In this document: positions 23,473-26,961 of the stretch, in pieces
How positions within the stretch are numbered: position 1 is the stretch's first letter
Layout of the letters: every line of letters starts with the position of its first letter
NCBI RefSeq assembly: GCF_018304825.1
Contig: NZ_CP072648.1
Span: forward strand, 1,409,501 to 1,473,500
Direction of reading: 5' to 3'
DNA: 64,000 nucleotides
Origin: Chloracidobacterium validum
GTDB taxonomy: Bacteria > Acidobacteriota > Blastocatellia > Chloracidobacteriales > Chloracidobacteriaceae
Program-made: the position numbers and the translations under genes
The notes under the pieces: generated by a model
Told to the model about the DNA's origin: nothing
The model's input: the letters and a program-made list of their open reading frames with translations, nothing else
Databases searched by the model: none

Positions 23473-24120
23473 ATGAGCACCATTGACCCGATTGCCGAGT
23501 TCATCCAAGGCCAGCTCAACGAAGTTCGTGTCGTCAGTGGCGAGCGAGAATACAACCGTAACGAAACGATCTACCATCTCGACGACCCGGCTGACCACAT
23601 CTTCTATATTCTCTCCGGGAGCGTCAAAATCACGCGCGTCTCAGACGACGGCAAAGAAAAGATCATCAGCATTCACCGCGCCGGGGAGATTTTCGGTGAG
23701 CTGTGTTTCTGTGAAGTGGATGATCGCCGCAGCGATCAGGCGGTGGCGATGGAGGCGACCCGCGTGCTGGCCATTCGCGTGCATGACTTTCTGGCGATGC
23801 TGCGCGAAAACCCGAAAGCGCTCCTGGACATGCTTTCGTTATTTTGCAAGCGACTGTCTGAAGCGCAGCAGCAAATCGAAACCCTGGCTTTTGACAATAC
23901 GACGCGCCGCCTGGCGCGTGTGCTTCTCAAATCCAGCAGTGACTCAGGACTTGACCGCCTGCGCCTAACCCACGAAGAACTGGCGCAAATGGTCGGAACT
24001 TCCCGCGAAATCATCACCACCATCATGAACCAGTTCCGCGAGGATGGGTTGATTGATTACCGGCGCAGCGAAGTCAGCCCACACGTTGATAAGCTGCGGC
24101 AGTTTCTGGTCACCGTCTAG
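23473..24120 (+). CDS. Crp/Fnr-family transcriptional regulator
   Basis: A 215-residue regulator: an N-terminal cyclic-nucleotide-binding beta-barrel (about 20-125, with GSVKITRVSDDGKEKIISIH and GEIFGELCF) and a C-terminal winged helix (LTHEELAQMVGTSREIITTI, then EDGLIDYRR). The recognition helix includes GTSREIITTIMN, similar to the E..SR pattern of Crp/Fnr helices. There is no N-terminal Cys cluster of the Fnr type; single cysteines occur in ELCFCEVDD and LFCK. The ligand is therefore unassigned. ATG 23473 has taggtgg just upstream and is preferred over 23443. Confidence 0.93.
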   Translation: MSTIDPIAEFIQGQLNEVRVVSGEREYNRNETIYHLDDPADHIFYILSGSVKITRVSDDGKEKIISIHRAGEIFGELCFCEVDDRRSDQAVAMEATRVLAIRVHDFLAMLRENPKALLDMLSLFCKRLSEAQQQIETLAFDNTTRRLARVLLKSSSDSGLDRLRLTHEELAQMVGTSREIITTIMNQFREDGLIDYRRSEVSPHVDKLRQFLVTV

Positions 24121-24172
24121 GGGCAATGGTGTCCAGAAAGATTCAGGATGCGTTGTTTGGGAGCCGGCCTCA

Positions 24173-24624
24173 ATGCTGACTCAACAGGAGTTTGAGAGCA
24201 TCTTAGCTGATGCGAGCAAGCGCATTGACGGCAATATCACTTGGCGTGAAGACCCGGAGCATTCGCCGGCGCGTGAGTTTCGCGTAGAGCTACGCTCGAT
24301 GCCGGATGGCCGGTCTTCGTCGTAGGGCGCTTCAACCGCAATGCGGGCACTTTGACATACGCCCTCATCCACCGCGGTGCTGGACGCATCTATGGACTAG
24401 ACCTCGGCGCCGATCACCATAACCCGACCTGTCAGAGGGTGGGAGAGAAGCACAAACATCGCTGGACAGAAGCGTTCCGTGACAAGGAAGCGTACGTGCC
24501 AGCGGACATCAGCGAACCCTGGCACAAGCTAGTTCAAGTCTGGCGGCAGTTCTGCGCAGAAGCCAAAATCACACATGCGGATGCACTGTTTGAGCCGAAC
24601 ATTCAAGATGAGCTGCCGCTATGA
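24173..24624 (+). pseudogene. Frameshifted small gene of the two-gene accessory module (DUF6978-like)
   Basis: Two adjacent reading frames form one protein if one base is restored near 24300-24310. Frame 1 runs from ATG 24173 (LTQQEFESILADASKRIDG) through EHSPAREFRVELRS and stops at 24323-24325. The continuation, read from about 24301 in the next frame, gives WPVFVVGRFNRNAGTLTYAL, then IHRGAGRIYGLDLGADHHNP and RVGEKHKHRWTEAFRDKE, ending at 24624. The joined product is about 150 residues. From memory it resembles a conserved family possibly called DUF6978; I cannot confirm the name. The final stop overlaps the next ATG (ATGA at 24621-24624), so the two genes form an operon. The shift may be a mutation or a sequencing error. 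Confidence 0.75.
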
Positions 24625-25400
24625 ATGCCCAAGAGCTGTGTGCTGCCCTGCAGGCCGATTGGTCGTCGCTATTTGAATGTAGCCCAGCCCCGAAAGAGGG
24701 TGTGCTGCGGGTGCGTACGCCATTCATGTACCCGGACGGTGGAGTAATCGACGTCTTTGTGCTGCCGCGTGACGGCGGCTTCGAGGTGACCGACTTCGGC
24801 GAGGCGCTGGGGTGGCTGCGTATGCAATCGGTCAGAGGCCATCTCTCTGCGAAGCAATACCGCCTGGTGCAGGACATTTGCCTGACGCTGGGCGTGGAGT
24901 TTTTCCATGGTCAGATTATGCTGCGCTGCGAAAAAAACACGGTGTCGCAGGCGGTGGTGCGCGTCGGGCAGTCCGCGCTGCGGCTCGCTGACCTCTGGTT
25001 CACACTTCGGAGGCGCGCCGTGGAAACCGTCTCGGATGAGGTGGGTGACTGGCTGCAGGAGAAGGTTATTCCGTTTGAGCGCGAAGTTCGCCACGTGGGT
25101 CGATCTGGTCGTTCGTGGACCGTTGACTATCAGACGCGCACGGCACAGAGAACCTGCCTAGTGTTTGTGCTCAGTACCGGCTCGCGCGCGGCGGCGCGAC
25201 GAGTGACCGAACACGTTGTCACCGGGCTGTACGACTTGAGCCACCTGCGCGTCGTACAGCCCGCGCTTTCGTTCGCTTCACTCTTCGACGATACCGAGGA
25301 CGTTTGGCAGGAAGAGGACTTCCGGCTGGTCGAAGGACTGTCAACGATCGTGCACTGGTCACGGCCGGACGAGTTCGAGAACGTTCTCAAAGCCGCGTGA
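24621..25400 (+). CDS. DUF1828/DUF1829-domain protein
   Basis: A 259-residue protein. The N-terminal half has the DUF1828 pattern: RVRTPFMYPDGGVIDVFVL, then PRDGGFEVTDFGEALGWLRM. The C-terminal half resembles DUF1829 (RSWTVDYQTRTAQRTCLVFV, with a following alpha/beta region). No enzymatic motif is evident; the alternating strands and the D-x-G-x3-V-x-D-F-G-E motif look like a nuclease-like or ligand-binding fold, but that is speculation. It overlaps the preceding small gene by four bases. DUF1828 proteins occur patchily in bacteria and in mobile regions, so this pair may be a defence or toxin-antitoxin-like module. No function has been demonstrated here. Confidence 0.75.
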   Translation: MNAQELCAALQADWSSLFECSPAPKEGVLRVRTPFMYPDGGVIDVFVLPRDGGFEVTDFGEALGWLRMQSVRGHLSAKQYRLVQDICLTLGVEFFHGQIMLRCEKNTVSQAVVRVGQSALRLADLWFTLRRRAVETVSDEVGDWLQEKVIPFEREVRHVGRSGRSWTVDYQTRTAQRTCLVFVLSTGSRAAARRVTEHVVTGLYDLSHLRVVQPALSFASLFDDTEDVWQEEDFRLVEGLSTIVHWSRPDEFENVLKAA

Positions 25401-25566
25401 CGTTCAGATACTCCCGCCTGAGAGCGTGCCTGAAAACTCCTAAACGGTGCGCCTTGCTTGTCCCCACCACTGAACACGCCAAGTCACGACCTGGAATGGG
25501 TACGGCAAGCGACCAAGTGAAGAAGGCAGGCGTTCACATCTGTTCTAGCGCCCTAGTTTCGGGCCG

Positions 25567-26961
25567 TTAGAGTCCACCATCCACGGTTTCCCGTGGAACC
25601 CATCCTTCACTGATTGAAGCTGATTTGCGCTGCACCCACTTCTGGGGGCGCACCCGGTAAAACTGCCCACGGATTTCAAGAACATCGGCTTCCGTACCGG
25701 CTGAAAGTTCTCCAATCCAATCGCGGGCGGTGGGATTTTCAAGCGGGGCCGCTTGGACCTTGGTTGGCGTGACGATCTTGACGTGGAAAAGCGGGCGCGC
25801 CGGTGATGCCGCCGCTGGGCGTGGACGCTGCTGCCCGCGGACGGACTCCCGCGCAAACCGATAGAGCGCGACCAAGCTGCCAATAAACAACACAAGGCAG
25901 CCCAGAACGACGCCGACCCCAATCAGTCGCGTTGTCACGGGCGACGGCAGATCAGACCTGAGCAATCCTTCGGAACTAACGGATTTCAGCGCTGCGTCAG
26001 CGTGTCCGTGGTCCGTCGTGGGTAGGGAGACCGTCGCGTTAGGTTCGCCGGTTTTTGAATCCCCAGATACCAACAGCGCCACGGGCGAGACCACTGCGGC
26101 CGCGCGCTCCACATCAGCCCAAAACGCGGCAACACTTGGATAGCGGTCGGTCACGAAACTTGCTGTTGCCTGGTTCAACACCTTGAGAAGTGCGCCGGCG
26201 CTTGGATGCTCCGCCATCCGCGGTGGTAAGGCCGTAATCGGTTGGCCAACCAGCTCCAGTGGTGGCCGACCGGCTAACACGGCATAAAGCGTCTTGGCTA
26301 GAGCGTACCCATCCGTTGCGGCTGAAGGCGGCGCGCACTGCCCAGGCTGACATTCAGGCGGTTGGTAAAGATGTGGCTGGCTGTAACCATTCCACTGGCC
26401 GGCGGCAGGGTCCTCATCACTTGTCGCCGAACCAAAATCGGCCAGCTTGAGGGTTTGGCGATCGGCTGTCAGCAACAAGTTGGCCGGTTCGACATCCCGA
26501 TGAATGACGCCAAGGCTGTGGCAATGGGTCAAGGCGACCACAGCTTGCCGAAACAGATGCAGGGCGTCGGTCAAGGACAGCCCCCCTAGTGATGTGCTGA
26601 ATGAAGCCAGATCCCCACCGGCCAGGTATTCAAGCACGTGATAGTCAAACTGGACGCCGGCCACGTCGCGGGCCGCACCGCCCGCCAAGTACGGCACAAT
26701 GTGCGGGTGGCGCAGATAGTCGAGCCAAATTCCCTCTTGGCGGAAGCGTACGGTGCGCCCATGTTGCCCCTCGGCGGACAACGGCGCGCGCAGCCCAGGG
26801 AAACTGGCGGCCTTGATCACGACGGGCTGCTCGCTGGCTTGATCCAGCGCCAGGAAAATTTCCGCCTGCCTCCCAACGCCGAGGCGCTGCCGAATCAGGT
26901 AGCGCCCGGCCAGCACCGTATTTTCAAGTTGAAGGGATGTCACGCGCTGCCACTGCTCCAC
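25567..26961 (-). CDS. Membrane Ser/Thr kinase-like protein with altered catalytic loop and SH3-like tail
   Basis: A 464-residue kinase-fold protein. The N-lobe has GRYLIRQRLGVGRQAEIFLA and VVIKAA (Lys 50). The catalytic loop reads GVIHRDVEPANLLL: the usual Lys of HRDxKxxN is Glu (158), while His-Arg-Asp and Asn remain. LADFGSAT keeps DFG, and PPECQPG takes the place of APE. A transmembrane helix follows at about 333-353 (LIGVGVVLGCLVLFIGSLVA). The C-terminal 70 residues (GELSAGTEADVLEIRGQFYR, then GWVPRETV) resemble a bacterial SH3 domain, which often binds peptidoglycan. Catalytic activity is therefore doubtful. The start codon is GTG at 26961; a later GTG (codon 7) is possible. Confidence 0.85.
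   Translation of the reverse strand: MEQWQRVTSLQLENTVLAGRYLIRQRLGVGRQAEIFLALDQASEQPVVIKAASFPGLRAPLSAEGQHGRTVRFRQEGIWLDYLRHPHIVPYLAGGAARDVAGVQFDYHVLEYLAGGDLASFSTSLGGLSLTDALHLFRQAVVALTHCHSLGVIHRDVEPANLLLTADRQTLKLADFGSATSDEDPAAGQWNGYSQPHLYQPPECQPGQCAPPSAATDGYALAKTLYAVLAGRPPLELVGQPITALPPRMAEHPSAGALLKVLNQATASFVTDRYPSVAAFWADVERAAAVVSPVALLVSGDSKTGEPNATVSLPTTDHGHADAALKSVSSEGLLRSDLPSPVTTRLIGVGVVLGCLVLFIGSLVALYRFARESVRGQQRPRPAAASPARPLFHVKIVTPTKVQAAPLENPTARDWIGELSAGTEADVLEIRGQFYRVRPQKWVQRKSASISEGWVPRETVDGGL

Follow-up and report, generated by a model that had tools for sequence, protein, structure and literature searches.

An inserted DUF6978-DUF1828 gene pair with a broken first gene in Chloracidobacterium validum, and the frequent placement of its relatives in restriction-modification loci

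The stretch of the Chloracidobacterium validum genome analysed here (64,000 nucleotides, hereafter the window) carries a two-gene pair of the PADLOC candidate PDC-M24, in which a DUF6978 gene (gene A) broken by a frame change is followed by an intact DUF1828 gene (gene B). The pair is inserted between two genes that directly adjoin elsewhere in the genus, and many of its relatives lie in or beside restriction-modification (R-M) operons. We consider it about an even chance (roughly 50%) that the window holds an inactivated, inserted orphan copy of a module in which A would be toxin-like and B its neutraliser, with coupling to R-M genes in relatives. The window locus is modest in itself; the interest lies in the R-M linkage of the family and in the asymmetry of its lesions. 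With its R-M placement and a loss that recurs for A but not for B, a bare candidate becomes a concrete hypothesis: an R-M-coupled toxin and neutraliser.

An inserted gene pair with a split first gene

The first-pass annotation described two genes overlapping as ATGA, the first split near positions 24300-24310 and the second of a DUF1828/DUF1829 type. The overlap, formed by the stop of A and the start of B, is real in the sequence (Table 1), and an identical 4-bp A-B overlap occurs in six relatives (L023, L024, L030, L032, L037, and L052). DUF6978 and DUF1828, which the annotation had named for an HMM search, were matched by the second piece of A and by B, respectively. The DUF1829 half of its label did not hold, since Pfam gave no DUF1829 match in the window B at E up to 1; window-type B proteins nevertheless align with DUF1828-DUF1829 proteins over 227 columns (hhalign, 98.9%). 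Pfam reported no DUF3037 in the window B.

Table 1. Features of the inserted pair, in window coordinates
Feature	Position	Strand	Basis
Extra segment relative to the other six genus genomes (edges approximate; some ordinary intergenic sequence included)	24115..25570	.	blastn of Crp-gene loci G001-G006 and junction alignment
Gene A overall	24173-24624	+	DUF6978 / PDC-M24A; split by frame change
Gene A, piece 1	24173..24325	+	PADLOC PDC-M24A PDLC04533, profile 1-44, E 3e-14
Frame-change zone in A	24290..24304	+	three-frame comparison with intact relatives
Gene A, piece 2, DUF6978 core to stop	24304..24624	+	PDC-M24A profile 52-143, E 1.2e-41; DUF6978 8.3e-11
HxH of A	24451..24459	+	relatives' alignment and window sequence
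ATGA overlap, A stop / B start	24621..24624	+	sequence
Gene B, 259 aa, intact	24621..25400	+	DUF1828 8.1e-10; PADLOC PDC-M24B PDLC04540 1.4e-86
B residues 1-132, type III secretion chaperone-like modelled domain	24621..25016	+	structure comparison
B residues 134-259, PD-(D/E)XK-like modelled fold without (D/E)xK on strand 3	25020..25397	+	structure comparison

Searched apart, the two pieces of A match a single PADLOC model (PDC-M24A) in order and from different frames; the split of A is therefore not a chance arrangement. Piece 1 searched alone had no Pfam match, and DUF6978 was the only Pfam family found in the pieces or in the intact A of L023, without a HipA-type kinase match. The frame of piece 1 ends at a TAG finishing at 24325, its homology to intact A stops at about 24300, and the frame-1 LDAGWPVF of the window pairs with SDPGWPLF of the intact L023 protein. 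Because intact relatives start the second-half reading a few codons before the WPVFV join, the frame change falls at ~24290-24304, a refinement of the position first proposed. The interval 24281-24325 is free of homopolymers of 3 or more. Downstream of the lesion, the two histidines of an HxH motif (H94 and H96 of L023) are the only invariant columns of A across 18 relatives with intact A.

Identities of the window proteins to those of intact relatives run in step for the two genes (L023: A 68%, B 67%; L025: A 69%, B 64%), but with A below B for L024 (A 59%, B 65%); A thus shows a single lesion and is otherwise not clearly decayed. The earlier suggestion of a decaying module is accordingly supported by that lesion and not by the divergence of A, which does not clearly exceed that of B. 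On sequence grounds, a single-lesion A otherwise in step with B could reflect either an error in sequencing or a loss that happened recently.

The pair sits between a Crp-type gene (before A) and a kinase gene (after B). The Crp-type gene is present in 7/7 genus genomes and B in 1/7, the window's own, in keeping with the patchy distribution that had been surmised. All six other genomes have an empty site at which the Crp-type and kinase genes directly adjoin: the kinase homologue starts ~90-190 bp after the Crp-type gene in five of them (blastn), and the junction is visible in the alignment of the sixth (L050). The A-B pair is therefore an extra segment of ~1.4 kb. Repeats at the insertion were limited to short, chance-like ones, and the GC content of the module is 0.596, against 0.586 for the window. 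A promoter scan of the locus found none, and its one terminator-like site is below the chance expectation. In a tree of B proteins, the window groups with two Chloroflexota metagenome-assembled genomes (MAGs) and a MAG titled Deltaproteobacteria, not with other Acidobacteriota, at a support (88/88) that is not strong and with taxon labels that are no proof of transfer. The pair may have arrived by horizontal transfer.

The window's genome also has two HSDR_N matches, both elsewhere. Near one HSDR_N match, an N6_Mtase match (G000:C2:239715-240350, L098) is read through one TGA; the methyltransferase gene of a possible second R-M locus may be broken.

Lesions and genomic neighbours in relatives

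A survey of the phylum covered 396 genomes and found 21 places, distributed over 18 of them. Gene A was intact in ten of the places (L005, L006, L008, L010, L015, L017, L018, L020, L021, and L022), broken in five (the window, L003, L004, L012, and L013), not recognisable in four (L007, L009, L014, and L016), and cut by a contig end in one (L011); the remaining place (L019) did not hold a B gene. A scan of GTDB contigs added 22 loci (L023-L044), all titled MAGs. Both genes were intact in ten (L023, L024, L025, L027, L030, L032, L035, L036, L039, and L040), whereas A was broken in five: L026, L028 = L029, L031 (a repeat of L003), and L033 (a repeat of L004). L037 has an intact A and an in-frame stop in B, L038 an intact A and a B that runs off its contig, and L034 an intact B and no A; the last four (L041-L044) hold B fragments without A. 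A and B recur as a pair in relatives, which supports the module proposed in the first-pass annotation; its pairing of a disabled A with an intact B was confirmed and is also seen in relatives. The breaks in A are of three kinds: a frame change in the window, L003, L013, and L028 = L029, an in-frame stop in L026, and loss of the N-terminal part in L004 and L012.

Duplicates were counted once (L028/L029, with the same B and A; L031 = L003; L033 = L004), L011 and the loci without A were left out, and L019 was dropped as not B. Across the resulting 29 independent loci with recognisable A and B, A is broken in 7/29 and B in 1/29, counts that come from loci found through B, so that A-only loci and broken B genes may be under-counted. 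By gene length alone (150 versus 259 codons), a 7-versus-1 split has a probability of 0.0048. This is moderate evidence that lesions fall more often in A than in B, graded so because L026 and L037, one on each side, have ~3-5x coverage according to their titles and because the surveys ran through B.

B without A was seen in L007, L009, L014, L016, and L034; the B of L016 is short (137 aa). A DUF6978 match at the end of G094:C114 (L054) and a DUF1828 gene with the C-terminus of A at the end of G094:C4 (L011) belong to the same genome and may be one pair split by assembly. On plasmid pAOF1 (L104:5690-5966), A appears to be whole, with 98% coverage in a single tblastn piece; the annotation breaks it into short "prophage protein" fragments.

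These counts bear on whether the frame change in the window is a sequencing or assembly error, with A intact in the organism and the pair functional. We regard this as rather unlikely. It would account for a lesion that is the only one in a gene otherwise keeping pace with B (L023 and L025), but the comparison with L024 is reversed, the site has no homopolymer, the assembly consists of 2 contigs at a completeness of 99.95, and A is broken in six other independent loci.

A new result is that type I R-M operons often contain or adjoin close relatives of the pair, in some cases with overlaps of 4 bp. In tblastn searches for hsdR, hsdM, and hsdS, hsd genes were detected in 11/21 independent scan loci and in 0/17 control regions (Fisher P 0.0003), where 3 of the 11 positive loci (L041-L043) hold B fragments only, the scan loci extended up to 6 kb on each side (less where the contig ends), and the controls, of ~16.5 kb each, were hand-picked at round coordinates in 12 Acidobacteriota genomes not matched to those of the scan loci. 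The six hsd queries, identified by PADLOC/Pfam, were drawn from five of the counted loci (L023, L024, L027, L030, and L032). Neighbouring genes were named by PADLOC and Pfam, with 100/107 neighbour ORFs searched and, for the controls, 79/125 ORFs (those of 300 aa or longer). PADLOC returned many type II methyltransferase models for the controls and no type I/III R-M among 25 of 30 families listed.

Several of these placements are tight. L023 has the order hsdS-A-B-hsdR, with overlaps of 4 bp each at hsdS/A and A/B and a 14-bp gap between B and hsdR; hsdM/A and A/B likewise overlap by 4 bp each in L030 and L032. The gap to hsdR is larger in L027 (419 bp) and L024 (342 bp). The order in L052, which came from a DUF6978 survey, is hsdS-A-B. 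Two hsd clusters hold other defence candidates: a PDC-S65 protein that weakly matches SIR2-type models (L029:3779-5524) and a HerA-type ATPase (L027:3463-5262).

The linkage is frequent, not universal, given the hsd-less loci, the phage loci, and a window without R-M genes. The other 10/21 scan loci, including two whose contigs are shorter than 4 kb, showed no hsd gene nearby, and neither did the window pair. Near two of the hsd-less loci are a type IIG enzyme (L036) and a type II methyltransferase (L038), and a scan of the single or paired neighbours of L033, L034, and L039 found nothing. Among distant relatives, hsd matches were present in 3/17 regions: L063, L067, and L070 (~6 kb away). Type III mod and res genes stand behind B in L064 and L066, HmaB and HmaC genes are found in L072, and AbiEi and AbiEii genes in L065, the latter two loci without a recognisable A; the PADLOC search of this distant family covered 9 proteins from 4 of the 17 regions. 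At L065:7786-10654 (L009), the DUF1828 gene is followed by the AbiEi and AbiEii genes and preceded by an unrelated 191-aa gene without a Pfam match, possibly another partner. At L072:4973-11786 (L016), the short DUF1828-type gene lies between HmaB and an oppositely oriented HmaC.

The idea of a defence-type pair, put forward in the first-pass annotation, therefore stands for the family, as a PADLOC candidate often in or beside R-M genes, but the window copy lies outside any defence island, with the Crp-type and kinase genes as neighbours and no adjoining R-M gene. The same neighbourhoods would suit a non-toxic accessory that serves R-M in its assembly or regulation or through anti-anti-restriction, or else a pair carried along as a passenger in defence islands and prophages: within hsd operons it takes several positions, its other neighbours include genes of type III R-M, Hma, and AbiE systems, and in phages it lies in the lysogeny module. 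Against a passenger speak the conservation of the pair, its translational overlap, and the invariant HxH, and the lesion asymmetry is unexpected for two equal accessory parts. We hold this explanation to be doubtful.

Predicted structures and a possible mode of action

The model of A was built from the intact L023 sequence with an 18-row alignment (pLDDT 92.9, pTM 0.87). It is mostly beta and had no convincing match among solved structures (best Foldseek E 0.54; best VIA-align Z 5.1), which does not imply a new fold; one viral model matches it (E 1.6e-4), from an uncharacterised protein of Siphoviridae sp. ctRg81. A sequence search of the PDB returned nothing for A and two weak, unrelated entries for B. 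The model of B (27-row alignment; pLDDT 89.3) has a pTM of 0.54, so the arrangement of its domains is unsure. For residues 1-132, the structures matched include 8q8o_B (Z 10.5, rmsd 3.3, 122 aligned) and Spa15, a secretion chaperone (2xga_A; Z 9.0, rmsd 3.0, 109 aligned). Residues 134-259 resemble Cdn1 (8z4i_B; Z 10.7, rmsd 3.1, 117 aligned) and Can2 (7bdv_C; Z 10.4, rmsd 3.2, 118 aligned); across several PD-(D/E)XK nucleases, the Z scores of this modelled domain range from 9.5 to 10.7 over 107-118 residues. These likenesses between predicted and known folds are no proof of function. A (D/E)xK on the third core strand was absent from 27/27 aligned sequences of B, and D169 is kept in 26/27.

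Such a fold raises the alternative that B is an effector nuclease acting with R-M and that A is its adaptor or sensor. The PD-(D/E)XK-like domain, the retained D169, and the five loci with B and no A all point that way, but the missing (D/E)xK and the more frequent breakage of A than of B make this improbable. Production of A by programmed frameshifting or as a phase-variable gene, the latter raised in the first-pass annotation, has hardly any claim left and was rejected: A is split in several loci, but the sites and kinds of lesion differ between them, A has an uninterrupted frame in 12 close relatives, and the site has no homopolymer.

In the toxin-neutraliser reading that we prefer, A of the window copy was probably inactivated by one recent lesion, and the lone B that remains would be inert. 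In intact relatives, A would most likely be a toxin-like effector and B would most likely restrain it, the chaperone-like N-terminal domain clamping A and the catalytically bare nuclease-fold C-terminal domain docking on DNA or on the R-M complex. Coupling to an R-M operon would then allow phage attack on R-M to release A, and intact pairs would serve in defence. A wider proposal is possible but more tentative, namely, that DUF6978-DUF1828 is a mobile R-M guard module, carried by prophages and by R-M loci of type I, type III, and other kinds, in which a beta-rich HxH toxin would be clamped by a chaperone-like/dead-nuclease protein that senses R-M failure.

Comparison with known systems

The window A and B match both PADLOC models of PDC-M24 in the same order; relative to those models, the window pair differs in its broken A. 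The term "phage defence candidate" is used in the available text of PMC11514479. A literature search that left aside supplements and most subscription papers found no study of PDC-M24, and the accessible parts of PMC10821479, PMC13210130, and PMC7970244 mention DUF1828 and DUF6978 in passing only. Pairs of DUF6978-DUF1828-DUF1829 type with the family order of the window occur in Staphylococcus phage 37, Lactobacillus prophage Lj965, and plasmid pRSB223. They are distant in sequence from the window pair, and those of phage 37 and Lj965 lie between repressor and integrase, unlike the window copy. The window B had no match in phage and plasmid records at 1e-5 and none in viral contigs.

Parallels with HipAD, PDC-M66, and PrrC suggest, by analogy, that B is likelier the neutraliser and A likelier the toxin. 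In the validated DS-6/HipAD system, as presented in the sections available of PMC13092281, a DUF3037-DUF1829 protein partners HipA, and the authors suggest a toxin-antitoxin system. PDC-M66 (HipA-DUF3037) behaved like a toxin with its neutraliser: deletion of the DUF3037 gene is toxic and HipA is needed for defence, according to the accessible portion of PMC12548924. Insofar as these texts describe them, both systems resemble the window pair in their two-gene layout, and the DS-6 partner also in a DUF1829-type region. HipAD differs in that A is not a HipA kinase and B is a DUF1828 protein without a reported DUF3037; what the HipAD partner has in common with B is limited to the DUF1829-type region, for which the window B gave no Pfam match.

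PrrC offers a precedent for a toxin tied to type I R-M, its gene lying within the hsd operon of EcoprrI (PMC3874165, in part). According to the available passages of PMC3506569, PrrC is a single protein, an anticodon nuclease that carries an ABC NTPase domain, and the R-M complex holds it. A and B, in contrast, are two small proteins of other families, and the window copy lies outside any R-M operon and has no R-M neighbour. Many A-B relatives, like PrrC, lie inside hsd operons. If the reading proposed here is true, the pair may be a further case of the coupling of immunity and suicide that the same passages of PMC3506569 propose for prokaryotes.
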